Shown in pieces: positions 1 through 17,477 of a stretch of 64,000 nt of DNA (position 1 is its first letter; every line of letters starts with the position of its first letter). The stretch spans positions 1 through 64,000 of the forward strand of contig JAIUPD010000011.1 of assembly GCA_020161615.1 (NCBI GenBank), given 5' to 3'. The stretch comes from Pseudomonadota bacterium. GTDB taxonomy: Bacteria; Pseudomonadota; Alphaproteobacteria; Rhodobacterales; Rhodobacteraceae. The translations under genes were made by a program, and so were the position numbers. Below the pieces are notes generated by a model. It made no database searches, was not told the origin of the DNA, and saw only the letters and a program-made list of their open reading frames with translations.

Positions 1-127
1 AAGCTACCAGTCGTAGGCATAGGCGTAGAACTAGTTCTAGACATGGAACCTCGGCGATCAGAGCAACGCAAGAAGCCTACTCCACACCGGACGCGCTCTT
101 AACCCACGGGGTTCCCTTCCCGCTTAC
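1..127 (-). mobile_element. Terminal segment of an IS66-family-like insertion sequence
   Basis: Read on the minus strand from position 127, the sequence starts GTAAGCGGGAAGGGAACCCC. This fits the GTAAGCG...AACCCC type of terminal inverted repeat known for IS66-family elements. It begins exactly where the dctM reading frame stops resembling its family. The 127 bp hold no gene and would be the leader before the first IS gene, which lies outside the window. A 14-bp perfect palindrome TAGAACTAGTTCTA sits at 26-39. IS66 elements usually make 8-bp target duplications; the candidate here is 128-135, but the other end is not visible. The family call is by motif only. Confidence 0.6.
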
Positions 128-1232: not shown

Positions 1233-1246
1233 GCCGGGTCAGCCTG

Positions 1247-1726: not shown

Positions 1727-1751
1727 CGGCTTTCCTCCTCCGGCCGACGAA

Positions 1752-1770
1752 GGGCGCCGGTTGGGCGCCC
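1752..1770 (-). other. Intercistronic hairpin between dctP and dctQ
   Basis: GGGCGCC and GGCGCCC form a perfect 7-bp stem with a 5-nt loop in the 66-bp dctP-dctQ gap. There is no T-run, so it is more likely an mRNA-stabilising or processing stem than a full terminator. Such stems after a binding-protein gene are often linked to excess expression of that protein; that role is inferred. Confidence 0.5.
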
Positions 1771-1792
1771 CTCAGGTTTCAGGGGCCGGGGA

Positions 1793-2830
1793 TCACTCAG
1801 CCGAAGCCGCCTCGATCTCGGCGCGGACTTCCTCGACCAGGGCGCGGCCGTCGAGGCCATAGGCGCTCTGCACCGCCGCCGCCCATTGCGTCAGCACCGC
1901 GTCCGAGGCGCCGTGCATGGCCTCGAGGATACCGGGATCGACCGGCGCATAGGTCACGCCCGAGGCTTCGAGCTGCGCGCGCGTCACCGTATCGGCCTCG
2001 GCCGCGGCGGCGCCCATCCGTTCGGCAAAGGCCGAGCCCGAATATTCCATCACCGCCGCCCGCTGGTCATCGGACAGGCGGTCCCAGGCGCGCTGGTTGA
2101 AGAACACGAGGAAGCTGGCCGATTGCAGCGCCGGCGACATGTCGACGCAGGATTTGACATAGGGCGCCGCGCCGAACGAGACGACCGTCTCCTGCGTCAG
2201 GCCGAAGATCGCATCCACCGTGTTGCGCGAGACCAGTTCCTGCACCTGCACTGCGGGCGAGGCGGTGATCGCCAGGCCCATGTTGGCCATGGTCTCGGAA
2301 ATGGTGCCGGGCAGCACCCAGACCCGGCGACCCTGCAGATCCTCCAGCGTCGAGAGCGGCGTGTCGGTGGTCGAACACAGGATGTTCGGCCCCAGATGGA
2401 AGGCCGAGACGACCTCGACCCCCCGGATCCGCTCGACCGGGGCGAAATGCTCCTGGTAATTCTCCCAGAACACGCGCGAGGTGGCGGCGGTATCGCCGAG
2501 ATCGAGGAACGGCATCTGCGTCAGCATCACGCCGGGGTGGTTCTGTCCCAGAAAGCCGTTGAAGATGAAGCCCGCATCGGCCACGCCGTTGCGCACGGCA
2601 TCGACCACGCCCGGCGGCGGCGAGACGGATTGCGGGGTGAAGACGATGCGCACCTCGCCATTGGTGGCGGCGGCGATGTCGTCCGACCAGGCGCGGAACA
2701 CCGGCCAGCTGAAATGGTTCGGCGGGAACAGGCTGGAAAAGGTCAGCTCGGTCACGGCTTGGGCCGAAACGGGCGCGATCAGCGCCGCGACGGAAATGAG
2801 CGCCCCGAGAACGGGCGTGCGAATGGTCAT
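1793..2830 (-). CDS. dctP: TRAP transporter periplasmic substrate-binding protein DctP
   Basis: 345 residues with an N-terminal signal peptide (hydrophobic core about residues 7-20, cleavage near VSAQA) followed by a DctP fold: TELTFSSLFPPNHF at the mature start, then an internal region near residue 160 with the conserved-type RRVWVLPG that resembles the R-x-P ligand site. The start at 2830 is preferred over an upstream in-frame ATG at 2881 because GGAGG stands at the right distance and the signal peptide begins there. First gene of dctPQM, 80 bp downstream of the LysR gene. The ligand is probably an organic acid, given the family; its identity is not visible. Confidence 0.92.
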   Translation of the reverse strand: MTIRTPVLGALISVAALIAPVSAQAVTELTFSSLFPPNHFSWPVFRAWSDDIAAATNGEVRIVFTPQSVSPPPGVVDAVRNGVADAGFIFNGFLGQNHPGVMLTQMPFLDLGDTAATSRVFWENYQEHFAPVERIRGVEVVSAFHLGPNILCSTTDTPLSTLEDLQGRRVWVLPGTISETMANMGLAITASPAVQVQELVSRNTVDAIFGLTQETVVSFGAAPYVKSCVDMSPALQSASFLVFFNQRAWDRLSDDQRAAVMEYSGSAFAERMGAAAAEADTVTRAQLEASGVTYAPVDPGILEAMHGASDAVLTQWAAAVQSAYGLDGRALVEEVRAEIEAASAE

Positions 2831-2909
2831 CGTGTCCTCCCTTACACCGGCAGACCTGCCTGGCCCTTGGCGTAAACCCAAGCGTGCTAGGGAATCAATT
2901 ACACAGCCG

Positions 2910-3830
2910 CTATCGCGATACCGCTTCCTTATCGCTGATCATCGAAGCGACGCGGCGCCGGATGCATTGCGCGAAGGTGTCGGCGGCCGGGGTCAGCGGG
3001 TGGCCGGCCCTTGTCATCAGGCAGATGGACAAGGGCTCGATATGTTCGCGGATCGGGATCTGGGCGATGTTCCAGGATTTCTTCAGATCATCGAGCAACA
3101 GCCCCGGATAGGTCATGATCGCCCCCAGACTCTCGACCAGCGAGATCGCCCCGAAATAGCTTTCCGAGGTTGTCGTGGCATGGGGCGGGACGAAGCCGTT
3201 CTCGATGAAGGGCTTGCGGAACACGTCGCCCGGGCCGGTCGGCACGCCCAGCATCACCCATTGCGCATCGACCAGTTCGCCGATCGAGCGGGCGTGGCGA
3301 TAGGGCGAATCGGCCGAGGTGACGACGATGATCGGAGAATAAAGCAGATGCTCGACGTTGATTTCCCGAGCCATCCCGGCGGGCGGCGCCGGGCCGATGA
3401 CAATATCGGTCCGCCCCTCGCGCAGCGGTTTCAGCGCGCCGGGAAACAGGCCCGAGGTGAAGCGCACGTCGATATCGGGATAGGACTTGCGAAAGAAGGT
3501 CAGCGCCCGGGGGATGATCCTGACCGCCGCCAGCGGCGAGAGGCAGACATGCACCGCGCCCTTCTGCTCGCCCCGCAGCTGTGCGACCTCATCCTCCATC
3601 CGCTCGATTTCCGAGCTGATGGTGCGGGCGCGGGCCAGGATCCGCTCGCCCACTTCGGTCAGCCGCACCCCGCGCGAGGTACGGACGAACAGCGACAGGC
3701 CGAGTTCGCTCTCGGCCTGGCGGAGGGCCTGGGTCAGGCCGGGTTGCGACCGGCCGAGCGCCTTGGCGGCAGCGCGCAGGCTGCCGTGTTCGGCGATGGC
3801 GACGAGGGTCTGGATATGTTGGACACGCAT
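2910..3830 (-). CDS. LysR-family transcriptional regulator
   Basis: 306 residues. Residues 1-60 form the winged helix-turn-helix of LysR proteins (HGSLRAAAKALGRSQPGLTQ), followed by a linker helix and a two-lobe effector domain, of the type seen in regulators of aromatic and organic-acid catabolism. It lies directly upstream of dctPQM on the same strand and back to back with the SDR-P450 pair, so it probably controls both sides from the 92-bp shared promoter. The inducer would be the transported or oxidised compound; this is inferred from context. Confidence 0.92.
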   Translation of the reverse strand: MRVQHIQTLVAIAEHGSLRAAAKALGRSQPGLTQALRQAESELGLSLFVRTSRGVRLTEVGERILARARTISSEIERMEDEVAQLRGEQKGAVHVCLSPLAAVRIIPRALTFFRKSYPDIDVRFTSGLFPGALKPLREGRTDIVIGPAPPAGMAREINVEHLLYSPIIVVTSADSPYRHARSIGELVDAQWVMLGVPTGPGDVFRKPFIENGFVPPHATTTSESYFGAISLVESLGAIMTYPGLLLDDLKKSWNIAQIPIREHIEPLSICLMTRAGHPLTPAADTFAQCIRRRVASMISDKEAVSR

Positions 3831-3846
3831 GGTGATAAGCGAACAT

Positions 3847-3868
3847 TATTGGTAGTGGAACTGCAATA
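3847..3868. promoter_or_regulatory. Candidate LysR operator in the lysR/SDR divergent promoter
   Basis: TATTG and CAATA form an inverted repeat separated by 12 bp, inside a short AT-rich stretch of an otherwise GC-rich region, between two divergent starts. LysR proteins usually bind interrupted dyads of this kind near divergent promoters. Only the dyad is seen; binding is inferred. Confidence 0.4.
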
Positions 3869-3922
3869 CTATTCGCGATTGCCCGCCCCCCCTAGGTTGC
3901 ACCCGTCAAGAGGGGGAGGACC

Positions 3923-4735
3923 ATGGCAACGCTGACCTATGCGGTCACGGGGGTTGCAAGCGGGATCGGCGCGGAACTGGCGCAGGTCCTCAAGGCGCAG
4001 GGCCACCGGGTTCTGGGCTTCGACATCCGCGAGACCACGGCCAATATCGACCGGTTCATCCCGCTCGACCTCAACGATCCGGCCAGCATCGCCCATGCGG
4101 TGCGGATCGTCGGCGAACCGCTGGACGGGCTGTGCAACAACGCCGGCCTGCCGCCGCGGCTGGGGCTGGAGGAGACCATCCTGCAGGTCAATTACCTGGG
4201 CACGCGGGCCTTTACCGGCGCCTTGATGCGCTGGTTCCGGCCCGGCGCTTCGGTCGTCAACATGGCCAGCCGCGCGGGCCAGGGCTGGCGCGAGGGGGTC
4301 GAACAGGTCCGCCGTCTGAGCGAGATCCGCCGCCGCGACGACATCGCCCGCTTCATCGCGCTGGAAGGCATCGACGCGACGCGTTGCTACAACCTGTCGA
4401 AGGAGGCGGTGATCCTGTGGACCATCGCCGAGACCGAGGCAATGATCGCCCGCGGGATGCGCATGAACTCGCTCAGCCCCGGCGCCATTGCCACCGGCAT
4501 CTTCGGCGATTTCCAGAAGGCTTTCGGCGAGGTGGTAGGTCGCAACATCGCCCGCGCCGGTCGCCCCGGCACGCCCCGCGAGGTGGCCGAGGCCGCGGCC
4601 TTCCTGCTCTCGCCCGCCTCGGGCTGGATCAAGGGCGCCGATATCGCCATCGACGGCGGCATGGGCGCGTTCAACCTGTCCGACCGGCTGGACCTGACCG
4701 GCCTGACCCTGCCCAAGGAGGCGATCACGCCATGA
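3923..4735 (+). CDS. SDR oxidoreductase, coniferyl-alcohol/3-alpha-hydroxysteroid dehydrogenase-like
   Basis: 270-residue classical short-chain dehydrogenase. NAD(P)-binding TGVASGIG at residues 9-16, NNAG at 72-75, catalytic Ser116 and Tyr156-x3-Lys160 (YNLSK). The long insert between the Ser and Tyr motifs and the GWIKGADIAIDGG tail fit the CalA/3-alpha-HSD-like group, which oxidises alcohols on aromatic, steroid or terpenoid rings. The start has GGGGAGGA upstream. Its stop overlaps the start of the P450 fusion gene by 4 bp, so the two are translationally coupled. A paralogue of the same type lies at 13330-14100. The substrate is unknown. Confidence 0.88.
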   Translation: MATLTYAVTGVASGIGAELAQVLKAQGHRVLGFDIRETTANIDRFIPLDLNDPASIAHAVRIVGEPLDGLCNNAGLPPRLGLEETILQVNYLGTRAFTGALMRWFRPGASVVNMASRAGQGWREGVEQVRRLSEIRRRDDIARFIALEGIDATRCYNLSKEAVILWTIAETEAMIARGMRMNSLSPGAIATGIFGDFQKAFGEVVGRNIARAGRPGTPREVAEAAAFLLSPASGWIKGADIAIDGGMGAFNLSDRLDLTGLTLPKEAITP

Positions 4736-6915
4736 ACACGCGCGCAGCCGTTCCGGCCGGGATCCCCGTCTCGACCCTCGATTACTATGGCGATGACGCG
4801 ATCCGCGACCCCTATCCGGTCTACGAGGAAATCCGCGCCCTGGGCCCTCTGGTCTATCTGGCGCAGCACGACCTCTACGCGGTTCCGAATTATGCCGAGG
4901 TCAGCCATGTCCTGCGCCATCCCGAGTTCTTCTCGAACGCGCGCGGTGTCTCGCCCTTGCAGAAGGTCAACGACATTCTGGTGGGGTCCACCCTGAATTC
5001 GGACCCGCCGTCCCATGACCGGACCCGCGCCATCACCGCCGAGCCCCTGCTGCCCGGCGCGCTGGGCGTGGTCGAGGGCCGGATCCGCGAGGCGGCCGAC
5101 GGGCTGATCGACACGCTCTGCCAGCGGGGCGAGTTCGACGCCGTGAAGGATTTCGCCCGCTACCTGCCGGTGACCATTGTCGCCGAACTCGTGGGCCTTC
5201 CGCCCGCCGTCGATAGCGAGCAGATGCTGAAATGGGCCTCGGCCACCTTCAACCTGTTCGGGGACGAGAACGCCCGCACCATCGAGGCCTATGAACACCT
5301 CAAGGACCTGCGCGATTTCCTGCGCGAATACGGCCGGCCCGAGCAGCTGAAAGAGGGCGGCTGGGCCAAGCGGATTTTCGAGGTCGGACCCGAGCGCGGC
5401 ATTTCCTACGAGACCTGCGCCCAGCTGATGCGCGATTACATCAACCCCTCGCTGGATACGACGATCTCCACCTCCGGCCAGTTGATCAAGCTTTTCGCCG
5501 AGAATCCCGCCGAATGGGCCAAGGTCCGCGCCAACCCCGATCTGGTGAACAACGCCATTGAGGAGGCGGTGCGCATCGCCGCCCCGGTGCGCGGCTGGAC
5601 CCGCTATGTGGCGCAGGACGCGGAACTGGCCGGGCATGTCCTGCCCCGGGGCTCGCGCGTGCTGGTGATGTTCGCCGCCGCCAACCGCGACCCGGTGAAA
5701 TACCCCGACCCGGCCCGCTTCGACGTGACGCGCGACGTCCACGATCATGTGGGCTTCGGTCAGGGCGTGCATATGTGCATGGGCATGCATCTGGCCCGGC
5801 TTGAGATGCAGAGCCTGGTCCACGCGCTGCGCCGCCGGGTCGAGGGCTTCACCCTGACCGAGCCGCCGGTCATGGCCCTGAACAACACGATCAGCGGCTA
5901 TCGGTCGATGCCGGTGCGGGTGACGCTGGCGGCCGAGGTCCTGGCCCGGCCCGCGGCACGGGCGGTCGAGAATCCCTGGCTGGACGTGACAATCGCCAGC
6001 CGCCGCCCGGCCGCCACCGACATCATCGCGCTGGAGCTGGTCTCGGCCGATGGCAGCCCCCTGCCCGCCTACGAGGCCGGGGCGCATGTCGATGTCTATG
6101 TGCAATCCGGCCTGATCCGGCAATATTCGCTGACCGGCGACCCGGCCGACCGCAGCCGCTACCGGCTGGGGATCCTGCTGGACCCGGCCTCGCGGGGGGG
6201 ATCCTCGGCGATCCACGCCCGCTTTGCCGAGGGGCAGCAGATCCGCATCGGCCGCCCGCGCAACCACTTCCCCTTGCAGAAGGCCGACCACACGATCCTC
6301 TTCGCCGGCGGGATCGGCATCACGCCCATGCTGGGCATGGCCCATGCGCTGGAGGCTCAGGGCGCCTCGTGGGAGCTGCATTATTGCGGCCGGACGCCCG
6401 ACCGGCTGGCCTTTGCCGAGGAGCTGGCAGCCTTCGGCGACAGCGTGCAGCGGCATGTGGACAGCGGGCCGGACGCGCAAAAGCTCGACATCGCCCGCGT
6501 TCTGGCCGGGCCCGAGGCCGGGCGGCACCTCTATGTCTGCGGCCCCAACGGCTTCATGGATTTCGTCACCGAATCGGCGGCGGCGCAGGGCTGGGACAAG
6601 GCGCAGGTCCATCTCGAACGCTTCGGGGCCGAGGTGAACACCGACGGCGCCCCCTTCACGGTCATCGCCCAGCGCTCGGGCAAGAGCTTCGAGGTGGCGC
6701 CGGGCGAAACCATTGCCCAGAAGCTGGCGGAGAACGGGATCGAGGTTCAGGTCTCGTGCCAGTCGGGCGTCTGCGGCACCTGCGTGACGCGGGTGCTCGA
6801 GGGGATGCCCGATCACCGCGATCTGGTGCAGACCGATCTGGAGAAGGCCGCGAACCGCACGATCACCGTCTGCTGCTCGCGCTCGAAGACCAAGACGCTG
6901 GTGCTGGACCTCTAG
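4732..6915 (+). CDS. Self-sufficient cytochrome P450 fused to a phthalate-dioxygenase-type reductase
   Basis: 727 residues combining a monooxygenase and its electron supply. Residues 1-400 are the P450: ExxR at E278-R281 and heme loop FGQGVHMCMG with Cys349. Residues 415-727 are a reductase: FMN motif RQYS at 463-466, NADH-binding GGIGITP at 526-532, and a C-terminal plant-type 2Fe-2S domain with C676, C681, C684 and C714 (C-x4-C-x2-C-x29-C). This is the class VII (P450RhF/CYP116B) layout. The I-helix reads PSLDTT (239-244), unlike the usual A/G-G-x-D/E-T. It would hydroxylate or O-dealkylate a small molecule using NADH; the overlapping SDR could oxidise the product. It ends 4 bp inside the 3' end of the convergent iclR gene. 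Confidence 0.93.
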   Translation: MNTRAAVPAGIPVSTLDYYGDDAIRDPYPVYEEIRALGPLVYLAQHDLYAVPNYAEVSHVLRHPEFFSNARGVSPLQKVNDILVGSTLNSDPPSHDRTRAITAEPLLPGALGVVEGRIREAADGLIDTLCQRGEFDAVKDFARYLPVTIVAELVGLPPAVDSEQMLKWASATFNLFGDENARTIEAYEHLKDLRDFLREYGRPEQLKEGGWAKRIFEVGPERGISYETCAQLMRDYINPSLDTTISTSGQLIKLFAENPAEWAKVRANPDLVNNAIEEAVRIAAPVRGWTRYVAQDAELAGHVLPRGSRVLVMFAAANRDPVKYPDPARFDVTRDVHDHVGFGQGVHMCMGMHLARLEMQSLVHALRRRVEGFTLTEPPVMALNNTISGYRSMPVRVTLAAEVLARPAARAVENPWLDVTIASRRPAATDIIALELVSADGSPLPAYEAGAHVDVYVQSGLIRQYSLTGDPADRSRYRLGILLDPASRGGSSAIHARFAEGQQIRIGRPRNHFPLQKADHTILFAGGIGITPMLGMAHALEAQGASWELHYCGRTPDRLAFAEELAAFGDSVQRHVDSGPDAQKLDIARVLAGPEAGRHLYVCGPNGFMDFVTESAAAQGWDKAQVHLERFGAEVNTDGAPFTVIAQRSGKSFEVAPGETIAQKLAENGIEVQVSCQSGVCGTCVTRVLEGMPDHRDLVQTDLEKAANRTITVCCSRSKTKTLVLDL

Positions 6916-7682
6916 CCCAGCGCCGCCTGCCGCAGCGCATCCACATGCGCCTCGGCAAAGGCCTCGGGCGACATCAACCCGCCGGTGAAGACCAGCGGGA
7001 TGCCGAACAGCGTCCCGTTGGGTGACCGCACCGCCACGGCCACGGCCGACAGATTGTCGGCCGCCACCGTCTCGCCCAGATAGGGGTAAAGCCGCTTGCC
7101 ATAGCCCCGGGCGCGGGTCGCCTCGATCTCTTCGTAAAGCCGCGCCCGGGTCATGTTGAACCGCTCGAGCCCGAAGATCGCATCGCCCCGCGTCCGCTCG
7201 ATCAGATGCTCGACCATCGACGGCGGGCAGAGTGCCAGACAGGCCTGACCCGAGGCCGCGCCGAAGACGTTGAAGCGCCGGTCGACCACCCCCGGCACCA
7301 TGAAATGCGGGCTCAGCGGCCGCGTCGTATCGACGAAACGCATGCAGAGGTCATCCATCACATGCAGGTCGCAAGGCCATTTCAGGCGCCGAGTCAGCGC
7401 CGCCAGCCGGACCATCAACTGATCTACAAAGCGTTGATCTTCCAGAGAAAGCGCATCGACCAGCGCGGTGCGGGCCAGGATATTGACCCGGTAGCGTCCG
7501 TCCGCCATCGAGCGGCGGACGAAATTGCGCTCGACCAGCGTGGTCAGCAGGCGGCGGGTGGTGGTGATCGGCAGATCGGCGTCGCGCGCCACCTCGCTCA
7601 GCGTGCGCGGGCCGAAACGCGACAGGCATTCCAGCACCGTGAGGCCCCGGTCGAGCGATCTGTTCTGCTCCGCGTCGGACAT
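6912..7682 (-). CDS. IclR-family transcriptional regulator
   Basis: 256 residues with an N-terminal winged helix (LDRGLTVLECLSRFG, then the TTRRLLTTL recognition region) and a C-terminal IclR effector domain. It is convergent with the P450 gene (4-bp tail overlap) and divergent from the hydrolase-accB-accC operon. It therefore most likely controls the latter and itself. IclR proteins of this type often sense aromatic or short organic acids; the ligand is not known here. Confidence 0.9.
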   Translation of the reverse strand: MSDAEQNRSLDRGLTVLECLSRFGPRTLSEVARDADLPITTTRRLLTTLVERNFVRRSMADGRYRVNILARTALVDALSLEDQRFVDQLMVRLAALTRRLKWPCDLHVMDDLCMRFVDTTRPLSPHFMVPGVVDRRFNVFGAASGQACLALCPPSMVEHLIERTRGDAIFGLERFNMTRARLYEEIEATRARGYGKRLYPYLGETVAADNLSAVAVAVRSPNGTLFGIPLVFTGGLMSPEAFAEAHVDALRQAALG

Positions 7683-7717
7683 CGCCCGCCCTCCCGCAGG
7701 TTTCAGCGCGTCGGGTG

Positions 7718-7735
7718 TTTACCGCTCTGCGGAAA
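7718..7735. promoter_or_regulatory. Candidate IclR operator
   Basis: TTTACCGC and GCGGAAA form a near-perfect dyad around a 3-bp centre, 36 bp upstream of the iclR start in the 155-bp gap to the divergent hydrolase gene. IclR-family operators are short palindromes of the CCG...CGG kind, so this is a reasonable site. No binding data. Confidence 0.4.
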
Positions 7736-7837
7736 GCCTGTCAAATCGCGTTGCCTGTCCCCGGTCGGACGGGAAGATGGCCAGCAAGGGCCGCTTCCCC
7801 CGGCGAGGGGATCCGAGAAGCCTGAGAGGGGAAGACA

Positions 7838-9505
7838 TTGGGCCACAAGAACATCCTGTTCATCATGTTCGATCAGCTGCGCTGGGATTACCTCAGCTGC
7901 GCCGGACACAAGACGCTGCAGACGCCGCATATCGACCGGCTGGCCGCGCAGGGGGTGCGATTCACCAAATGCTACGTGCAGTCCCCGGTCTGCGGCGCCA
8001 GCCGCATGAGCACCTATACCGGCCGCTATTCCAGCAGCCACGGCGCGCAATGGAACGGCTATCCGCTGCGCGTGGGCGAGATGACGCTGGGTGACCATCT
8101 GCGGGCCAACGGGATGGACTGCTTCCTGCTGGGCAAGACCCACATGAAGGCGGATCTGGAGGGGATGGCACGGCTCGGCATCGACCCCGACAGCAAGATC
8201 GGCCGCCGGCAGGCGGAATGCGGGTTCGACGCCCATATCCGCGACGATGGCCTCTGGCCCAACGGGCCGGACGGATTCTATGACCCCAAGCCCTCACCCT
8301 ACAATGCCTATCTGAAATCCAGGGGCTATGCCGAGGACAACCCCTGGAACATGAATGCCAACGCCGGGCGGGATGAGGACGGCAACATCGCCTCGGGCTG
8401 GTTCATGCGCCACGCCGACAAGCCCGCCAATATCCGCGAGGAAGACAGCGAGACGGCTTGGCTGACCACGGAAACCATGAATTTCATCGAGAATGTGGCG
8501 CCCGACACCCCCTGGTGCGCCCATGTCAGCTACATCAAGCCGCATTGGCCCTATATCGTCCCGGCCCCCTATCACGCGATGTACGGGCCGGACGACGTGC
8601 AACCGGTCAACCGCGCCGACAGCGAACGCGTGGATCCTCATCCCGTCTACAAGGCCTTCCACAGCAACCTGATCGGCCGCGCCTTCCACCGCCAGGAAGT
8701 CCGCGACAAGGCGATTCCGGCCTATATGGGCCTCATCAAGCAATGCGACGACCAGATGGGCCGCCTTTTCGCCTGGCTGGAGGAAACTGGCCGCATGAAG
8801 GACACGGTGATCGTCATCACCTCGGACCATGGCGATTATCTGGGCGATCACTGGATGGGTGAAAAGGACCTGTTCCACGATTGCTCGGCCAAGGTGCCGC
8901 TCATCATCTACGATCCCAGCCCCGAGGCCGACGCGACCCGCGGCACCACCTGCGACGCGCTGGTCGAACAGATCGACCTGACCGCGACTTTCATCGAGAT
9001 GGCGGGCGGCGAGGTGCCCGCGCATATCGTCGAGGGGCACTCGCTGCTGCCCTTCCTGCACGGGCAGCAGCCTGCGGAATGGCGCGAGGTGGCGATCAGC
9101 GAATACGATTACGCGGTGACGCCGATGCGGGCGACGCTGGGCGTCGCGGATCAGGACGCGCGGCTTACCATGGTCACGGACGGCCGCTGGAAGCTGATGC
9201 ATTCCGAGGGGCCGGGCCATGGCGCCATGCTCTTCGATCTGGTGAACGACCCGAACGAACTGACCGATCTGGGCCGCGACCCGGCTTATGAGGCCGAGCG
9301 CGCGCGGCTTTACGCCCATCTGCACCGCTGGGCGCTCAGGATGAACCAGCGCGTCACCCGCTCCGCCGCGGATATCGCCGGCATGCGCGGCCGCAGCCGC
9401 CGGCGCGGCATCCTGCTGGGCGTCTATGACGCGCATGAGGTCGAGGACGAGTTGACCCGGCACCTGCTGGGCAAGGCGAAAGAGGATTTCGTGTCAGGTC
9501 ACTGA
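7838..9505 (+). CDS. Sulfatase-superfamily hydrolase, phosphonate monoesterase/arylsulfatase type
   Basis: 555 residues. Formylglycine-type nucleophile motif C52-G-A-S-R56 (C-x-A-x-R rather than the commoner C-x-P-x-R), early metal residues FDQ (D12), and late metal site SDHGDYLGDH followed by an EKDLFHD segment. Stretches such as APYHAMY and the WRE...SEYDY region recall phosphonate monoester hydrolases more than classical arylsulfatases. Likely cytoplasmic, since no signal peptide is seen, so Cys maturation would need an anaerobic-type or FGE-like enzyme encoded elsewhere. TTG start at 7838 with GAGAGGGG upstream. First gene of an operon with accB and accC. Substrate: an organic sulfate, phosphonate or phosphodiester, not determinable. 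Confidence 0.85.
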   Translation: MGHKNILFIMFDQLRWDYLSCAGHKTLQTPHIDRLAAQGVRFTKCYVQSPVCGASRMSTYTGRYSSSHGAQWNGYPLRVGEMTLGDHLRANGMDCFLLGKTHMKADLEGMARLGIDPDSKIGRRQAECGFDAHIRDDGLWPNGPDGFYDPKPSPYNAYLKSRGYAEDNPWNMNANAGRDEDGNIASGWFMRHADKPANIREEDSETAWLTTETMNFIENVAPDTPWCAHVSYIKPHWPYIVPAPYHAMYGPDDVQPVNRADSERVDPHPVYKAFHSNLIGRAFHRQEVRDKAIPAYMGLIKQCDDQMGRLFAWLEETGRMKDTVIVITSDHGDYLGDHWMGEKDLFHDCSAKVPLIIYDPSPEADATRGTTCDALVEQIDLTATFIEMAGGEVPAHIVEGHSLLPFLHGQQPAEWREVAISEYDYAVTPMRATLGVADQDARLTMVTDGRWKLMHSEGPGHGAMLFDLVNDPNELTDLGRDPAYEAERARLYAHLHRWALRMNQRVTRSAADIAGMRGRSRRRGILLGVYDAHEVEDELTRHLLGKAKEDFVSGH

Positions 9506-9534
9506 CCCCGGCCGCTTGGTGCGGCCACTGACAC
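9491..9534 (+). other. Nested hairpin across the hydrolase stop codon
   Basis: An outer repeat GTGTCAG/CTGACAC (9491-9497 and 9528-9534) encloses an inner stem GGCCGC/GCGGCC (9510-9515, 9521-9526). The structure covers the stop codon of the hydrolase gene and ends just before the accB ribosome site (GGGAGGAAG). No T-run follows. It may be a processing or stability element between cistrons. Confidence 0.4.
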
Positions 9535-9552
9535 GCGAAACGGGAGGAAGAC

Positions 9553-10050
9553 ATGGCAGGCACCGCGGATTTTCTGACGGATGCGGATCTGACGCGCATC
9601 GAACGGCTGATGGAGGCGCTGGATCGCTCGGGCATCGATTACATGAAGGTCGATATCGGCGCGCTGCAGCTCACGCTGGGCAAGGGGGCGCCGCCGGCGC
9701 CCCAGGCGGCCCCGGTCTCGGCGCCTGTCGCGACCCCTGCCGCGCCCGCGTCGCCTGCGGCGGTGGCCGCCCCGGCGGCCCCTGCCCCAACGCCGGCCCC
9801 CGCAGCCGCGGGCGAGGTGATTGCCGCGCCCCTCATGGGCCGCTTCTATGCCCGGCCCGAACAGGGCGCCGCCCCCTTCGTCACACTCGGCGATACCGTG
9901 ACCCCGGACACCACCATCTGCCTGATCGAGGTGATGAAGACCTTCACCTCGGTCCCGGCCGGGGTCTCGGGGCGGATCGTGGAAATCCTGGTCGCGGACG
10001 AGGCGGTGGTCGAATACGGCCAGCCCCTCTTCCGCGTCGAAAAGGCCTGA
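9553..10050 (+). CDS. Biotin carboxyl carrier protein (AccB-like)
   Basis: 165 residues: a short N-terminal helical region (about 1-50), an Ala/Pro-rich flexible linker (about 52-90) and a C-terminal biotinyl domain. The biotin acceptor is Lys129 in EVMKTF; the usual context is EAMKM or EAMKL. It is 3 bp from the biotin carboxylase gene and in an operon behind the sulfatase-like hydrolase. It would carry carboxybiotin between AccC and a carboxyltransferase. The nearby OadA/PycB-like protein has no biotinyl domain of its own and is the obvious partner. It probably is a dedicated carrier, not the housekeeping AccB of fatty acid synthesis. Confidence 0.88.
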   Translation: MAGTADFLTDADLTRIERLMEALDRSGIDYMKVDIGALQLTLGKGAPPAPQAAPVSAPVATPAAPASPAAVAAPAAPAPTPAPAAAGEVIAAPLMGRFYARPEQGAAPFVTLGDTVTPDTTICLIEVMKTFTSVPAGVSGRIVEILVADEAVVEYGQPLFRVEKA

Positions 10051-10053
10051 ACC

Positions 10054-11400
10054 ATGGCCATCCAACGCGTCCTCATCGCCAACCGCGGCGAAATCGCCGT
10101 GCGCATCATCCGCGCCTGTCGGGCGCTGGGCATCGAGACGGTGCAGGTCGTCTCGGACGCCGACCGCGACAGCCTCGCCGCCCGGCTGGCCGACCGGACG
10201 CTCTGCATCGGCCCGGCGGAATCGGCCAAGAGCTATCTGCAGATCGAGACGCTGCTGATGGCGGCCGAGGTGACGGGCTGCGACGCGGTGCATCCGGGCT
10301 ACGGATTCCTGTCGGAATCCGCCGATTTCGCCCGCCGCTGCGCCGAGGAAAAGCTGATCTTCGTCGGCCCCACGCCCGAGAACATCACCCGCATGGGCAA
10401 CAAGATCGAGGCCCGGCGCCTGGCCATCGCCGCCGGCGTCCCGGTGCTGCCCGGGTCCGAAAAGGTCGCCTCGGCCGACGAGGCGCTGACGAAGGCGCGC
10501 GAGATCGGCGTGCCGGTCATGCTGAAAGCCGCGGCCGGCGGCGGCGGCCGCGGGATGAAGATCGTCCACGACCTCGCCAAGCTGGCCGAGACCTTCCAGG
10601 CCGCCTCGGCCGAGGCAAAGGCGGCCTTCGGCGACGGCTCGATGTATGTCGAGCGCTACGTGGCCAAGGCCCGCCATGTCGAGGTGCAGATCCTGGCGGA
10701 CAGCCACGGCACCGTGCTGCATCTGGGCGAGCGCGATTGCTCCTCGCAGCGGCGCCATCAGAAGATGGTCGAGGAAGCGCCCGCACCCCAACTCTCCGAC
10801 GCGCTGCGGCAGGGGCTGCAGCAGGCCGCCGTCGCGCTGGCCCGGACGATCCGTTATGTCGGCGCGGGCACCGTGGAATTTCTGGTCGATGCCGAGCGCG
10901 AGGGGTTCTATTTCCTGGAGGTCAACACCCGAATCCAGGTCGAGCATCCGGTGACCGAGATGATCACCGGCGTCGATCTGGTGCAGGAGCAGTTCCGAGT
11001 GGCGAATGGCGAGCGGCTCTCGTTCTCGCAGGAGGAGATCCGCTTCTCGGGCCATGCCATCGAGGCCCGGGTGAATGCCGAAAGCCCGGCGCAGGGCTTC
11101 CGTCCGACCCCGGGCCGGATCACCGGGTGGACCCCGCCCGAGGGGCCGGGGATCCGCGTGGATTCGCATTGTTACGAAGGCTACCGGGTGCCGATCTTCT
11201 ACGATTCGATGATCGCCAAGCTGATCGTCCACGGCCGCGACCGGTCCGAGGCGCTGGCCCTGATGGACCGGGCGCTGTCGGGCTTCGGGATCGGCGGGAT
11301 CGAGACGACGATCCCCTTCGTCCAGCGCATCCTCCGCGACGAGGCGTTTGCGCGGGGGGATGTGAGCACGGTGTTGGTGGATCGGTTGATGGCATCCTGA
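10054..11400 (+). CDS. Biotin carboxylase subunit (AccC-like)
   Basis: 448 residues, full length for a stand-alone biotin carboxylase. ATP-grasp features: glycine-rich loop GGGGRGMK near 164-171, and the active-site segment EVNTRIQVEHPVTE. It uses ATP and bicarbonate to carboxylate biotin on the carrier encoded 3 bp upstream. No carboxyltransferase is fused to it, unlike pyruvate carboxylase. Downstream is a repeat block and then the convergent pycB-like gene. Best read as part of a three-protein carboxylase with 9553-10050 and 11683-13176. Confidence 0.93.
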   Translation: MAIQRVLIANRGEIAVRIIRACRALGIETVQVVSDADRDSLAARLADRTLCIGPAESAKSYLQIETLLMAAEVTGCDAVHPGYGFLSESADFARRCAEEKLIFVGPTPENITRMGNKIEARRLAIAAGVPVLPGSEKVASADEALTKAREIGVPVMLKAAAGGGGRGMKIVHDLAKLAETFQAASAEAKAAFGDGSMYVERYVAKARHVEVQILADSHGTVLHLGERDCSSQRRHQKMVEEAPAPQLSDALRQGLQQAAVALARTIRYVGAGTVEFLVDAEREGFYFLEVNTRIQVEHPVTEMITGVDLVQEQFRVANGERLSFSQEEIRFSGHAIEARVNAESPAQGFRPTPGRITGWTPPEGPGIRVDSHCYEGYRVPIFYDSMIAKLIVHGRDRSEALALMDRALSGFGIGGIETTIPFVQRILRDEAFARGDVSTVLVDRLMAS

Positions 11401-11427
11401 GGGGGGGCGATCAGCCGGAGGCACCCT

Positions 11428-11637
11428 GTAGGGTGGGAGTCCATCCCACCCCGCGCGGGGCTCGGCGGTGCGTGCGGGCACGTACCCCACGGGGGGTGGG
11501 ATCGCGTTGCGAATGGGTCGATGGTGGGGTGAAACCCCACCCTACGAATGCGCCTTGTTGGTCCGGATTCCATCCCACGGGTGGACGGATCGCGTTGCGA
11601 ATGGGGCGTAGGGTGGGATCTCATTCCACCCCGCGCG
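11428..11637. repeat. REP-like cluster of palindromic repeats
   Basis: The 282-bp gap between convergent accC and pycB-like genes is filled with related units: GTAGGGTGGGA...ATCCCACCCCGC at 11428-11453, a similar arm at 11608-11634, and an inverted arm GGTGGGGT...ACCCCACCCTAC around 11523-11544. The 19-mer GGATCGCGTTGCGAATGGG occurs twice, at 11499-11517 and 11587-11605. These resemble REP/BIME-type intergenic repeats and may end transcription from both sides. Confidence 0.75.
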
Positions 11638-11682
11638 TCCCCCGCAAGCAGCGGTAGGCTGCGTGCTGGCACGCATCGCCCT

Positions 11683-13176
11683 TCACCCCCGCTGCAACAC
11701 CAGCCCATCCTCGCCCCGGCGGATCTCCAGATGCCGCAGGCTCTTGCAGGCCCCGAACCGCTCGATCACCCGGGTGATCACCGGATCGGCGCCGGCGTAT
11801 TGCCGCCACGGCCCCGCCGCCCGCATCGCCTCGATATCGCCGGTCTGCCCCTGCATCATCGCCCTGAGCAACATCTCCTCGTCCGAGACATTGGCCCCGC
11901 CGTAAAGCGCCCGCGCCTCGGCCAGCGACATCTCGCGCTGGGGGGTCGGGTCGGTCTTGGCCGCCAGCTCCTTGCCGCGCGGGTTTTCCAGCAGCCGGTC
12001 GCGCAACCCCTCGTCCATGTCCTGATAGCCCGAATCCTCGCCGTAGCGCCCCCGCGCGAAAAGCAGGAGTTCATCCAGTACCACCTTGTAGCGCTCGCCC
12101 GCCTGCACGTTCAGCGCCGCCTGGGTGCAGACGTATTGCGAATGGGGGGTGATCATCACCGGATAGCCCATGTCGGCCCGAACCCGCACGGTTTCCTCGA
12201 TCACCTCCTCCAGCCGGTCCTGCAGGCCGATGCTGGCCAGCTGATGGCGCAGGTTCGAGATCACGCCGCCCGGGATCTGATGCACATATTGCGCCGCGTC
12301 ATAGGCCGAGGGCGCACCCACCGGCATCCCGTCGATCCGGGCGATGGTGTGCAGCCGCTCCGACACCGATTGCACCAGATCCAGATCCAGCGCCACCGAA
12401 TGCCCCGCCGAGATCGCATTCCGCGCCGTGCGCAGGACCGAGGGCTGGGCGGAACCCTCGGCCAGCGGCGGGATGCCGGTGTGCAGCGTCGGGATGCCCA
12501 GCTCCAGCGCGGCGGCATAGACCATCGGCGCTTCGCCCGTGGTGCAATGCGAATGCAGCTCGACCGGGATCGTCCCCGCCTCCTCCAGGATCGCGGGCGC
12601 GATCTCGCGCAGACGGTCGACGGTCAGAAGCCCGCCCGCGTCCTTGATATAGATGACCTCGGGCTTCCAGGCCGCCACCTCCCGCGTCTTGCGGCGGAAA
12701 TGCTCGACATTGTGGCGCGGCGAGAGGGAATAGCAGATGCCGGGCACCACCTCGATCCCGATCTCGCGATAGGCGCCGAAGAGGTCGGCGAAGTCGCGGG
12801 CGATCTGGTCCTGGGTGTTGCTCATCAGCTGGGCGCGCTGCAGCGCCCCCATCTCGTAGAGCCGCTTGAAGAAGAGCTTGCCCAGCACGAGGGGCGTCGG
12901 CGCGCCGAAGAGGTTGAGGTTCAGCGTGCTGGCCATGCAGGCCTTGGTGGTATTCGGCATCAGCGCTGCCAGACGCGCCATCAGCTTCCAGGGATCCTCT
13001 TTCAGATCCCGCACCAGCTTCTTGAAATAGATGGCGTTGCCCGGAACCTCGATCACCCGGAACCCGGCGCGGTCCATGTCACCCGCCACCGCCTCCATCA
13101 TCCCCGACCGCATGCCGCTGGCCCAAAGGCTCTGCGAGCCGTCGCGAAAGGTCGTATCGACGAAATGAACCTGCAT
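11683..13176 (-). CDS. Pyruvate carboxylase subunit B / oxaloacetate decarboxylase alpha-type carboxyltransferase
   Basis: 497 residues with a DRE-TIM (HMGL-like) barrel in the N-terminal half: DTTFRDGSQSLW at 7-18, a carbamyl-lysine motif IKDAGGLL and metal ligands in LHSHCTTGEAP. The second half is the conserved OadA/PycB extension. There is no C-terminal biotinyl domain, so biotin must come from a separate carrier. Known members transfer carboxyl groups to or from pyruvate, oxaloacetate or 2-oxoglutarate. RDGSQSL replaces the common RDAHQSL, which could change keto-substrate handling. Start supported by GGGGAGGG. It is divergent from SDR2-epoxide hydrolase and convergent with accB-accC. 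Confidence 0.88.
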   Translation of the reverse strand: MQVHFVDTTFRDGSQSLWASGMRSGMMEAVAGDMDRAGFRVIEVPGNAIYFKKLVRDLKEDPWKLMARLAALMPNTTKACMASTLNLNLFGAPTPLVLGKLFFKRLYEMGALQRAQLMSNTQDQIARDFADLFGAYREIGIEVVPGICYSLSPRHNVEHFRRKTREVAAWKPEVIYIKDAGGLLTVDRLREIAPAILEEAGTIPVELHSHCTTGEAPMVYAAALELGIPTLHTGIPPLAEGSAQPSVLRTARNAISAGHSVALDLDLVQSVSERLHTIARIDGMPVGAPSAYDAAQYVHQIPGGVISNLRHQLASIGLQDRLEEVIEETVRVRADMGYPVMITPHSQYVCTQAALNVQAGERYKVVLDELLLFARGRYGEDSGYQDMDEGLRDRLLENPRGKELAAKTDPTPQREMSLAEARALYGGANVSDEEMLLRAMMQGQTGDIEAMRAAGPWRQYAGADPVITRVIERFGACKSLRHLEIRRGEDGLVLQRG

Positions 13177-13329
13177 GAAGCCCTCCCCTGTGATCCCGCC
13201 AGCCTAGCAGCACCGAAGCGGCGCCGAAGCGCCAAGCCGCAGCCTTGCCGCCTGGCGGCAAGCCCGCGCGCGGCGGTGTCGGGACCGCCCGGCCGGTCCT
13301 AGGATCGACGCACAACAGGGAGGGGTATC

Positions 13330-14100
13330 ATGCGGATCATCGTCACGGGCGCGGCCTCGGGGATCGGGCGGGCCATCGCCGAGCGGCTGCTGGCGGACCG
13401 GCATCAGGTCGTCGCGCTGGATCTGCGGCCGGTCGATCTGCCGGAAGCCGAATGTCACATGATGGACCAGGGCGATCCGGCCAGCATCGACCGGGCGCTC
13501 GCCGCCATCGCCGGACCCCTGGACGGGCTGGTCAATTCGGCGGGCCTGCCGCCCCGGCCGGGCAATGAGGCGCTGCTCCTCCGCGTCAACCTGATCGGCC
13601 TCAGGCATCTGACCGAAGCGGTTCTGGACCGCCTGACGCCGGGCGGCGCGGTCCTCACCGTCGCGTCGCGCGCGGGACATGCCTGGCGGGAAAACCTGCC
13701 GCAGGCCAGGGCCGTGCTGCGGCTTGGCTGGGGCGACGACGTGGCGGGTTTCTGCACGCGCGAGGGGATCGACGCGCTGCGCGCCTATGCGCTGTCGAAA
13801 GAGGCGCTGATCCTCTGGACCCGGCAGATGACCGCGCCGCTGATCGCCCGCGACCTGCGGATGAACGCCCTGTGCCCCGCGGCGGTGGAAACCCCGCTGC
13901 TGGACGATTTCGCCCGGCTGCAAAGCGCCGATTCCATCGCCCGCAACGCCGCCCGGACCGCCCGCATGGGTCGGGTCGCGGATATCGCCCCGGTCGCGGC
14001 CTTCCTGCTCTCGCCCGAGAGCGGCTGGATCAAGGGCGAGGCCTTGGCCCTTGACGGCGGCCTCGCCGCGATGGCCGAGTGCGAGGCGCTGGGTCTCTGA
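13330..14100 (+). CDS. SDR oxidoreductase, second CalA/3-alpha-HSD-like paralogue
   Basis: 256 residues: TGAASGIG at 6-13, NSAG near 69-72, catalytic Ser113, Tyr153-x3-Lys157 (YALSK), and a C-terminal GWIKGEALALDGG tail very similar to that of the SDR at 3923-4735. Both share the long Ser-Tyr insert with SRAG..W.E. The start follows GGGAGGGG. It is the first of two genes with the epoxide hydrolase (16-bp gap) and is divergent from the carboxyltransferase gene. Probably acts on a later or alternative alcohol of the same pathway; the substrate is unknown. Confidence 0.88.
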   Translation: MRIIVTGAASGIGRAIAERLLADRHQVVALDLRPVDLPEAECHMMDQGDPASIDRALAAIAGPLDGLVNSAGLPPRPGNEALLLRVNLIGLRHLTEAVLDRLTPGGAVLTVASRAGHAWRENLPQARAVLRLGWGDDVAGFCTREGIDALRAYALSKEALILWTRQMTAPLIARDLRMNALCPAAVETPLLDDFARLQSADSIARNAARTARMGRVADIAPVAAFLLSPESGWIKGEALALDGGLAAMAECEALGL

Positions 14101-14116
14101 CCCGAAGGAGACCCGG

Positions 14117-15274
14117 ATGACCCCTGCCCCCTTTGCCCTCCACATCCCCGAGGACGCGATCCGCGACCTCAAGGCCCGCCTGGCCCGCACCCGGTTTCCC
14201 GATCAGGCGCCGGGCACCGGCTGGACCTATGGCACCGACCTCGCGTTCATGACCCGTGCCATGACCCATTGGCGCGAGCGCTTCGACTGGCGCCAGACCG
14301 AAGCCGCGCTGAACGCATTGCCGAATTACCGCCTGGCCATCGACGGGCTGGACCTGCATTTCCTGCATGTGCCGGGCAAGGGGCCGGACCCGCTGCCGCT
14401 GCTGCTGTCGCATGGCTGGCCGGGGTCGGTGCTGGAATTTCTCGACCTCATCCCCCGGCTGACCGATCCCGCCCGCTTCGGGGGCGATCCGGCGGATGCG
14501 GTGACACTGGTTGTCCCGTCCCTGCCCGGCTACACGCTGTCCTTCGCGGCAAACGGGCCGCGCTACGGGATCGAAGAAATCTCGCCCCTGTTCCTGCGGC
14601 TGATGACGGCGCTGGGCTACGACCGCTTTGCCGCGCAGGGCGGCGACTGGGGCTCGTTCGTCACCGCCCGCATGGCCCATGACGCGCCCGAGCGGCTGAT
14701 CGGCATTCACCTCAACATGACGGCGTTGCCGATCAATCCCGCCAGCATCGAGACTCCCACGCCGGAGGAGGCCCGCTATGCCGCCGAGATGAAGGTCTTC
14801 GCCGCGCAGGAGACGGGCTATCAATGGATCCAGGGCACCAGGCCCCAGACCCTCGCCTATGGCCTCAGCGATTCCCCAGCGGGCCTCGCTGCCTGGATAT
14901 TCGAGAAATTCCGAAGCTGGACCGATTGCGGCGGCGATGTGGAAAGCGTGCTGTCCTTGGACCGGATGCTGGGCCTGATCTCGCTCTACTGGTTCACCGG
15001 CTGCATCGGGTCCTCGTTCCACCCCTATGTCACCCGCCGCCAGCGGCCCTTTCCGATGCCCCGGCCCATCACCGTACCCACCGGCGTCGCCGCCTTCCCG
15101 CATGAGATCATCCGCCCGCCGCGCTCGCTGGTCGAGCGGCTCTATCCCGACCTCCGCCACTGGACGGCGATGCCCCGCGGCGGCCATTTCGCGGCGATGG
15201 AAACCCCCGAGGCGCTGGCGGCCGATATCCAGGCATTCCTGCGGCCCCTGCGGCGGGGTGCTCAAACCGGCTGA
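14117..15274 (+). CDS. Epoxide hydrolase (EHN-type alpha/beta hydrolase)
   Basis: 385 residues. An N-terminal EHN domain (FALHIPEDAIRDLKARL onward) precedes an alpha/beta hydrolase core. Oxyanion motif HGWPGS at 99-104, nucleophile Asp177 in GGDWGS, and catalytic His357 in RGGHFAAMETPE. This is the microsomal/juvenile-hormone epoxide hydrolase group; in bacteria it opens epoxides on terpenoid or aromatic compounds. Start at 14117 is chosen for the GAAGGAG site just before it; a longer frame to 14051 overlaps the SDR gene. Epoxides could be made by the P450 of the same island. It overlaps the tail of the convergent DUF2235 gene by 13 bp. Confidence 0.9.
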   Translation: MTPAPFALHIPEDAIRDLKARLARTRFPDQAPGTGWTYGTDLAFMTRAMTHWRERFDWRQTEAALNALPNYRLAIDGLDLHFLHVPGKGPDPLPLLLSHGWPGSVLEFLDLIPRLTDPARFGGDPADAVTLVVPSLPGYTLSFAANGPRYGIEEISPLFLRLMTALGYDRFAAQGGDWGSFVTARMAHDAPERLIGIHLNMTALPINPASIETPTPEEARYAAEMKVFAAQETGYQWIQGTRPQTLAYGLSDSPAGLAAWIFEKFRSWTDCGGDVESVLSLDRMLGLISLYWFTGCIGSSFHPYVTRRQRPFPMPRPITVPTGVAAFPHEIIRPPRSLVERLYPDLRHWTAMPRGGHFAAMETPEALAADIQAFLRPLRRGAQTG

Positions 15275-16404
15275 TCCGGCCGCTCCCGGACCGAGGGATG
15301 CAGTTCCGCCCCTTCGGGAATCGTGCGACCGCGCCCGAAGGTCGGTGGCGGGATGAATTCGACCAGCCGCCACCAGAAAGTCATCGACGGGTGGACCGGC
15401 GCCCGCGCGTCGTCGGGCATGCCGGGACCGGGCGGCAAGGCCTCCAGATGCGTGCGCAGCGAGGCGGGCGAATAGACCAGGCCCAGCGCCGCCGTTTCCT
15501 CGATCATCCAGCGCAGCGCGATCCGGCCCAGAGCCGACTCCGCCGGGGGCAGGCCGCCCCCCACATCGCGGTGGCTACCCGCAAACCAGACCTCGCGCAG
15601 ATCCTGCGGCACCGCGCTTTCCTCCCGGAAGCGGCGACGCCGGAAATCCTGGTCCTGAGGCCACAGCACCGCGCGGTAGAGCCGGCGCCGCTCGTGCACC
15701 GCCACAGCATGCCGGACATGCGCGACCGACGGATTGCGCAGGGTCGAGGCATGGTGCCGCCGGATGACCGGCTTGCCCCAGGGTCCCGGCTCGATCACCG
15801 AGGACACGGTGTCGAACAGCCCGAGCAGATGGATCGGCGGGCGGTCGGGGTTCAGATACTTTTCATAGAGACCCACCTCGGCGAAACGCTGGGCGGCATC
15901 GGCGCCCTCGTCCGCACGCTCGCCGATCCGCTTGTAGGCCCGCCAGGCATGGTCCAGCAGATTCAGGGTCCGCGGCGGGATCAGCCCGATCGTATGCAGG
16001 AACCCGGCCAGCATCCGTGCCGAATAGGCGCCGCGCGAAAACCCCATGATGACGATCCGGTCGCGCGGCCGGTCCTCTCCCTCCTCGCGCTTGCCGTTGT
16101 CATAGGTTTCGGCCAGGAAGCGGTAAGCGGCCTTGACGTTCTGATCGACGCCGAAGCCCGTGATCATGCCCCAGACCTCCAGGAACCGCTGGGCCGCGCG
16201 CGACCACAGGCCCTGGCCGCCCAGCGTGCCGACGCCGGGCGCGTACCAGACGAGTTGCCGGTCGCTTTTCTGCAGGCAGCCATAGAGGCGCAGGATATGG
16301 CTGGGATTTTCGGCCAGCGAATTCGCCGTGCCGTCGAAGAGCAGCACGATGGTCTTGGGTCCGGTCTCGCGCTTGCCGGGGCACGCTGGCTCTGCTTCGG
16401 TCAT
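15262..16404 (-). CDS. DUF2235 domain protein (predicted alpha/beta hydrolase)
   Basis: About 380 residues. The DUF2235 signature starts near the N-terminus (IVLLFDGTANS) and includes the nucleophile elbow GFSRGAYSAR and a later DVGGG segment (AGSHRDVGGGL). Some DUF2235 proteins are type VI secretion phospholipases (Tle1 type); others are of unknown function. No secretion genes, VgrG or immunity gene lie nearby, so an effector role is not supported. The start at 16404 follows GGGAGGG. The IS481-type element lies just upstream and may have separated the gene from its native promoter. Confidence 0.85.
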   Translation of the reverse strand: MTEAEPACPGKRETGPKTIVLLFDGTANSLAENPSHILRLYGCLQKSDRQLVWYAPGVGTLGGQGLWSRAAQRFLEVWGMITGFGVDQNVKAAYRFLAETYDNGKREEGEDRPRDRIVIMGFSRGAYSARMLAGFLHTIGLIPPRTLNLLDHAWRAYKRIGERADEGADAAQRFAEVGLYEKYLNPDRPPIHLLGLFDTVSSVIEPGPWGKPVIRRHHASTLRNPSVAHVRHAVAVHERRRLYRAVLWPQDQDFRRRRFREESAVPQDLREVWFAGSHRDVGGGLPPAESALGRIALRWMIEETAALGLVYSPASLRTHLEALPPGPGMPDDARAPVHPSMTFWWRLVEFIPPPTFGRGRTIPEGAELHPSVRERPDQPV

Positions 16405-16459
16405 GGTACCCTCCCTGTCACGCACATCGCCGCCAGCATGGCCGCTTTGCGTCCCCCTG

Positions 16460-16464
16460 CCTAG
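16460..16464. repeat. Left target duplication of the IS481-type element (CCTAG)
   Basis: CCTAG directly flanks the left end and is repeated at 17478-17482. CTAG is the core reported as preferred target for IS481. One extra T separates this copy from the TGTT terminus. Confidence 0.6.
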
Positions 16465-17420: not shown

Positions 17421-17477
17421 AGGGCTTCCTTCCATTCCTGAGAAAGGATCGCACCATCAAACCGTGGGATCAAACAC
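16465..17477 (-). mobile_element. IS481-family insertion sequence, about 1.0 kb
   Basis: One transposase gene fills the element. The ends are imperfect inverted repeats: TGTTCAGTCCC at the left (16466 onward) and, read inward from the right, TGTTTGATCCC (from 17477). Both are flanked by CCTAG. Size, single gene and ends fit IS481. The reading frame is whole, so the element may still be active. It sits between the DUF2235 gene and the aldose epimerase gene and breaks neither. Confidence 0.85.

Follow-up and report, generated by a model that had tools for sequence, protein, structure and literature searches.

The 64-kb window analysed here lies at the start of a 206-kb contig, in a genome of 4.87 Mb and 26 contigs, and is best read as holding two separable catabolic modules side by side, which in Pararhodobacter most likely run in series; we put the probability of this reading at roughly 45%. 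Module A, made up of a LysR regulator, SDR1, a P450-PDR fusion, an arylsulfatase and a TRAP transporter, would serve the uptake and oxidation of an aromatic compound. Module B, made up of a biotin carboxyl carrier protein (BCCP), a biotin carboxylase (BC) and a carboxyltransferase (CT), perhaps together with an IclR regulator, SDR2 and an epoxide hydrolase, would form a carboxylase of the HpeCBA/XccBCA kind that depends on ATP and biotin and acts on a ketone other than pyruvate. Both modules are of known kinds with unusual features, and the enzyme kind itself is already known.

Gene organization of the block

Gene calls and Pfam recovered all of the genes that the first-pass annotation had named, within 3923..15274 and in its flanks, and Pfam bore out the P450-PDR fusion, the IclR and LysR regulators, the free BCCP, the BC and the epoxide hydrolase. 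The features are as follows:

99-1232, minus strand: TRAP large permease (DctM), 377 aa (Pfam DctM positions 1-360 of 413)
1247-1726, minus strand: TRAP small permease (DctQ; Pfam DctQ)
1793-2881, minus strand: TRAP solute-binding protein (DctP; Pfam DctP, read as 1796-2938)
2910-3830, minus strand: LysR regulator, pointing away from the SDR1-P450 pair (Pfam; a 69% identical LysR lies at the equivalent place in genome G027)
3923-4735, plus strand: SDR1, coniferyl-alcohol-dehydrogenase-like (NF009092, 248.1 bits against a cut-off of 242)
4732-6915, plus strand: P450-PDR fusion, 727 aa, with a CYP199-like heme domain and a C-terminal 2Fe-2S domain (Pfam p450, NAD_binding_1 and Fer2; tree)
6912-7682, minus strand: IclR regulator (Pfam)
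7838-9505, plus strand: arylsulfatase of the SpAS2 group (Pfam Sulfatase; PDB 4UPL, 799 bits; motif CGASR)
9553-10050, plus strand: BCCP (Pfam Biotin_lipoyl; EVMK site by eye)
10054-11400, plus strand: BC (NF006367, 667 bits against a cut-off of 597)
11401-11682: intergenic gap between BC and CT, in which a genome-wide palindromic repeat recurs
11683-13176, minus strand: CT, OadA/PycB-like, without a biotinyl domain (Pfam HMGL-like and PYC_OADA)
13330-14100, plus strand: SDR2, 46% identical to SDR1 (Pfam)
14051-15274, plus strand: epoxide hydrolase with an EHN domain (Pfam EHN and Abhydrolase_1; PDB 5f4z, 323 bits)

The ATG of the P450-PDR fusion overlaps the stop of SDR1, and the sulfatase, BCCP and BC genes follow one another on the plus strand, 47 and 3 bases apart. 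The CT gene, whose strand was corrected to minus, is convergent with BC, the two lying tail to tail across 282 bases, and thus the three carboxylase subunits do not form one operon. The repeat in this gap follows a pattern that matches the genome 60 times at no more than one mismatch (both strands counted, some matches being the two strands of one site) and 0 times when reversed as a control; a promoter and terminator scan of the gap found nothing. The BCCP scored 108.2 bits against TIGR00531, slightly below the cut-off of 115.2, and the start codon of the epoxide hydrolase is provisional, its EHN domain beginning at residue 26 in the 14051-15274 reading.

The P450-PDR fusion carries a CYP199-like heme domain

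In its architecture the fusion resembles the class VII CYP116B enzymes (CYP116B46, PDB 6kbh and 6laa), which likewise join P450, a flavin/NAD domain and a C-terminal 2Fe-2S domain in one chain; it has the heme motif FGQGVHMCMG, and CYP116B46 was the best PDB match to its full length. The heme domain, however, differs from that of CYP116B. When searched alone, it matched CYP199A structures best in the PDB, and CYP116B46 was absent from the best 60 of 261 matches. Among 16 heme domains placed in a tree, those of the two fused proteins, from the window and G027, grouped with three unfused relatives (support 99/99), and these five joined CYP199A2 and two P450s adjoining PDR genes (100/98). Five fusions, assigned to the CYP116B type on the basis of architecture and annotation, lay apart from the heme domain of the window and shared 21-26% identity with it; a Novosphingobium fusion and a C. 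necator N-1 P450 sat on long branches and their placement is unsure. Membership of CYP116B, as represented in the tree by those five fusions and not by CYP116B46 itself, is therefore ruled out. These groupings suggest that P450-PDR chains arose more than once, or that the heme domain was exchanged. No natural CYP199-like fusion appeared among the titles and abstract starts listed by searches of open PMC papers, and a P450-PDR chain with a CYP199-like, not a CYP116B-like, heme domain is notable by itself.

P450 families are delimited by a rule of at least 40% identity, and the heme domain of the window falls below it, being 36.2% identical to CYP199A2, the only CYP199A compared in full. Among enzymes of solved structure it is closest to CYP199A, and in this it resembles the p-methoxybenzoate O-demethylases PbdAB and CYP199A. 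PbdA works with a separate reductase (PMC11530827), whereas the P450 of the window is fused to its own. PbdA and CYP199A4 bind the carboxylate of benzoate via one Arg and two Ser (PMC11530827, PMC11854964), and we mapped these residues onto CYP199A2 by their spacing. The Arg of SSRGVG, a candidate for this site, proved to be the wrong one, the Arg and Ser three apart lying in WRPPSL of CYP199A2. In the window, the Arg is replaced by Ile or Leu, depending on the alignment, the I-helix Ser is replaced by Asp in both alignments, and the third residue (Ser) is Gly in one and Ser in the other, HMMER and MAFFT disagreeing on one of the two residues of the WRPPSL region. By these alignments the Arg-Ser-Ser triad is not kept, at least two of its three residues being replaced, which makes a benzoate substrate less likely; the head group of the substrate may instead be a phenol or an alcohol.

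Sulfatase, SDRs and epoxide hydrolase

The hydrolase between IclR and BCCP had been described as of PMH/sulfatase type, and of these two the sulfatase stood: its best match is SpAS2 (PDB 4UPL), a close homologue over residues 5-541 with 799 bits, and PMHs scored no more than 220 bits. At residue 52 it carries CGASR, in agreement with the formylglycine-type sulfatase motif C-x-A/P-x-R. SpAS2 hydrolyses p-nitrophenyl sulfate far better than the corresponding phosphonate or phosphate (PMC12421950). Sulfatases of this type were present in eight of ten chosen genomes, in 1 to 4 copies each, and on 66 plasmid records; among five sulfatase-bearing plasmid stretches, all four that were inspected (L063-L066, from H76, H77, H80 and H82) had no P450 among their annotated genes. 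These occurrences lessen the value of the sulfatase as a marker for the P450 module.

The description of both SDRs as CalA-like held for one of them, SDR1 passing the NCBIfam coniferyl-alcohol dehydrogenase cut-off and SDR2 falling short of it with 224.8 bits. When ten genomes were scanned for the epoxide hydrolase (E 1e-40), only the window's own and its sister had it.

A three-subunit carboxylase in a kinase-free clade

BCCP, BC and CT are separate chains, as are the three subunits of HpeCBA, XccBCA and Acv (SYK-6), and the CT is of PYC_OADA type with metal-site residues, showing HMGL-like and PYC_OADA domains and, as the first-pass annotation had stated, no biotinyl domain. Since three-protein carboxylases are already known in these systems, the enzyme is not of a new type. 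HpeCBA of Rhodococcus GD02 carboxylates 4-phospho-acetovanillone and 4-phospho-acetophenone, not the free ketones; its homologue in Aromatoleum EbN1 is XccBCA, and hpeHICBAD has a homologue in acvABCDEF (PMC9618137). The published system of this type acts on an aryl methyl ketone, and the published Hpe-type clusters carry a kinase (HpeHI) and HpeD, of which there is no match in the window.

The genome has a full-length pyruvate carboxylase (PYC) of its own, seen as a PYC_OADA match of 260.8 bits in a 1180-codon open frame on contig C3. This rules out the carboxylase of the window as the organism's only pyruvate carboxylase, in line with what the first-pass annotation needed for its pathway. 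A second three-subunit carboxylase set, with a HAD phosphatase match, lies on contig C5 (L026).

Aligned with its relatives, the CT retains R11, D12, Q15, K178, H208, H210 and S307. It has a serine, S83, where the host's own PYC has an Arg, which we take to be the residue that binds the carboxylate of pyruvate in pyruvate carboxylase; the missing Arg makes a pyruvate-like 2-keto acid a weak guess for the substrate. The equivalent position is Arg in G298 and G369, both of the window's CT clade, and in the kinase-linked L006. We dropped the missing Arg as a decisive mark of the substrate, since the position varies inside the clade.

For the CT tree, 26 rows were taken from 31 aligned, the extra copies L029, L030, L031, L032 and L034 being excluded; it contained no OadA, HpeB or XccC. 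The CT of the window grouped with three-subunit sets, far from the host's own PYC, in a separate clade of eight rows (support 100/99) outside the kinase-associated clades. This clade comprises the window, P. aggregans, a Rhodospirillales MAG, Sulfitobacter L004, G272, G128, G298 and G369, and its link to the HpeCBA kind rests on kinase-bearing relatives outside it. The BC agrees with this placement, being 60-64% identical to that of the five kinase-free relatives and 50-57% identical to that of other sets.

The neighbourhoods of these five more distant relatives (L004, G272, G128, G298 and G369) were searched over stretches of 11.8 to 25.3 kb, some ended by contig ends. Four of them (L004, G272, G298, G369) showed a match to a CoA-transferase, three (L004, G298, G369) one to a CitE-type lyase, and L004, G128 and G298 had TRAP matches; a kinase, a Tm-1-like gene or a HAD phosphatase was found in none at E 1e-10. 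The window and the Rhodospirillales MAG had none of these neighbour genes, save that the window matched a TRAP permease at 31%. In another CT clade, into which the second carboxylase of the host on C5 falls, all nine rows had a HAD phosphatase match and six had an HpeH-like kinase or a Tm-1-like gene. The window's kinase-free clade of ketone-type carboxylases, with CoA-transferase, CitE-type lyase and TRAP genes as neighbours in varying combinations, is notable by itself.

A tblastn search of all 64 kb with 26 proteins of relatives detected none of the genes that accompany those carboxylases, whether for a kinase, a CoA ligase, a CoA-transferase, a CitE-type lyase or a HAD phosphatase. Beyond PDR and TRAP matches, the best hit was to a CitE-type lyase (E 0.04 over 46 residues), and neither kinase nor HAD phosphatase matched better than E 0.3. 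The next steps of the pathway are therefore missing locally.

Among plasmid relatives of the CT, all six that were inspected, out of 144 records with a match, had adjoining BCCP and BC genes. An IclR match was present in 4 of the 23 other carboxylase loci (L009, L045, L046 and L049), and Pfam identified an IclR gene in carboxylase locus L055.

On contig C7 of the host (L077), HpeI- and HpeH-like kinase genes have a P450 gene and an ALDH gene as neighbours. Together with the carboxylase on C5, these kinase genes probably make up a classical Hpe-type route.

The block is conserved in Pararhodobacter aggregans

Pararhodobacter aggregans D1-19 has a CT that shares 96% identity with that of the window, and G295, a genome in the window's own genus, gave the same match. 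From TRAP to ALDH the block is syntenic in P. aggregans, except for a Tle1-like gene and a transposase (15262-17435), which had no match in the syntenic stretch. Over 14 genes, nucleotide identity between the two was 82.9-94.5% and dN/dS, from simple Nei-Gojobori counts, was 0.042-0.236, with values of 0.042-0.190 for the 11 genes from TRAP-DctP through the epoxide hydrolase. Such low values indicate that the genes of the block are under purifying selection, and, given this and the synteny, the block is not a chance assembly.

The TRAP transporter claimed by the first-pass annotation is present, its genes lying at 99-2881, but its large permease is an exception to the conservation of the block, being truncated here. 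The permease departs from the P. aggregans reading after residue 368 and then stops, near the contig edge, so that 377 aa stand against a DctM frame of 433 codons in P. aggregans; an insertion or the assembly edge may account for the shortening. Between the epoxide hydrolase and an aldose epimerase come the Tle1-like gene, encoding a T6SS phospholipase catalytic domain, and the IS-type transposase.

The two modules occur apart in other genomes

Co-occurrence of the carboxylase with the P450 fusion across related genomes, which the first-pass annotation had proposed as a test, was seen in two sister species only; outside them, the outcome is the one that the annotation named as refuting its pathway idea. 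Among 295 genomes of the family, CT was matched in 13 (E 1e-60) and the P450 in 5 (E 1e-120), and both in the host genome alone; at most five CT and three P450 candidates were scored per genome, and a weak paralogue may have escaped detection. Apart from the host's own, the P450 matches comprise one fused protein (G027) and three heme domains alone (G213, G072 and G142). Within the genus (18 genomes), CT was present in seven and the P450 in two, with both in the host genome and its sister only. Across 385 genomes of the class, with at most four CT and two P450 candidates scored per genome, CT was found in two (E 1e-85) and the P450 in one (E 1e-115), the host genome being among them in both cases. 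One scan of a contig database yielded 2 loci from 10 candidate stretches.

In G027, SDR1 is followed by the P450, a sulfatase, three TRAP genes and a second sulfatase, all pointing the same way, with LysR and ALDH genes divergent. This 15.9 kb stretch had no carboxylase match, and G027 is not among the family genomes with a CT match. Conversely, the P450 fusion was found in none of the 23 other carboxylase loci (the sister species excluded); a distant P450 (28%) lies about 9 kb away from the CT of L007, and L004 carries a PDR gene that stands separately. Module A thus stands without module B, and relatives of module B stand without module A.

A possible joint route and its alternatives

Placing potentially ketone-making enzymes beside a ketone-carboxylating one, as the first-pass annotation did, is chemically sensible, and a joint route from P450 and SDR through a ketone to carboxylation is plausible; outside the two sister species, however, the gene sets are separable. 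If the modules run in series, the substrate of module A, possibly a sulfate ester, would be opened to a phenol by the sulfatase, the P450 would hydroxylate or O-demethylate it, and an SDR would then oxidise the alcohol to a ketone. BC would carboxylate biotin on BCCP and CT would hand the CO2 to the enol of the ketone, yielding a beta-keto acid that would then be cleaved. The ethylphenol route of EbN1 follows the order of hydroxylation, alcohol oxidation and carboxylation, with hydroxylating enzymes other than those of the window. XccBCA, the HpeCBA homologue, serves this anaerobic degradation of ethylphenol and 4-hydroxyacetophenone (PMC9618137). Run in series, the modules would constitute an aerobic route, with a P450 forming the ketone and a biotin enzyme carboxylating it; no further aerobic aromatic pathway that includes a carboxylation was known to the authors of the Hpe study (PMC9618137).

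Synteny, purifying selection and the mere 47 bases that separate the sulfatase from BCCP favour a link between the modules, and against it stands the finding that, among the scanned genomes, they occur together in two sister species only. The reading is further weakened by the convergence of CT with BC, the local absence of matches for the next steps and the shortened TRAP permease. This restricted co-occurrence is what would be expected if the modules were unrelated neighbours, module A degrading an aromatic compound or an aryl sulfate alone and the carboxylase serving another compound. We consider this quite possible: module A occurs alone in G027, co-directional with TRAP genes and a second sulfatase, and the kinase-free relatives of the carboxylase lack the fusion and lie variously beside TRAP, CoA-transferase and CitE genes. 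Mere neighbourhood fits less well with a block that is syntenic in both species at low dN/dS, and with a sulfatase gene that lies immediately upstream of BCCP and points the same way. The arylsulfatase could also be given a different part, that of HpeD in a sulfo variant of the Hpe route, wherein an aryl sulfate ketone would be carboxylated while still sulfated and no kinase would be needed. Its gene lies between IclR and BCCP, the 64 kb hold no kinase or HAD phosphatase match, and HpeCBA accepts only phosphorylated ketones (PMC9618137), whose phosphate the sulfate would here replace. Even so, we find this variant unlikely, for the same sulfatase type lies beside a P450 without carboxylase in G027 and G142, it occurs in eight of the ten chosen genomes, in 1 to 4 copies, and a different contig of the host bears kinase genes like HpeH and HpeI. 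A shade less likely again is its fuller form, in which the aryl sulfate ketone would be imported, or made by P450 and SDR, and the sulfatase would act last.

Finally, the carboxylase might be a spare pyruvate carboxylase, or an oxaloacetate decarboxylase, in three pieces, as the homology of CT to OadA/PycB and its intact metal site would allow. We hold this to be the least probable of the alternatives, considering that the genome has a full-length PYC, that a Ser occupies the position of the presumed pyruvate-binding Arg, and that CT groups with three-subunit sets far from the host's PYC, in a tree without OadA. The presence of a biotin carboxylase partner would also point to the ATP-driven, carboxylating direction.

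Other carboxylase loci

The closest CT outside the genus (65%) lies within 1-5072 of L011, near a GrdB-like fragment; this 12 kb contig had no BC or BCCP match and is therefore uninformative for the pathway. In L055 (G369), BCCP-BC and CT are divergent and lie beside IclR, KASIII-like, luciferase-like and TauD genes. Contig C513 of G272 carries a sulfatase of the window's type (61%) about 20 kb from its kinase-free CT. L054 (G298) holds a compact kinase-free cluster at 954-9961, in which TRAP, CT, BCCP, BC, SDR, CitE-type lyase and CoA-transferase genes are all co-directional.
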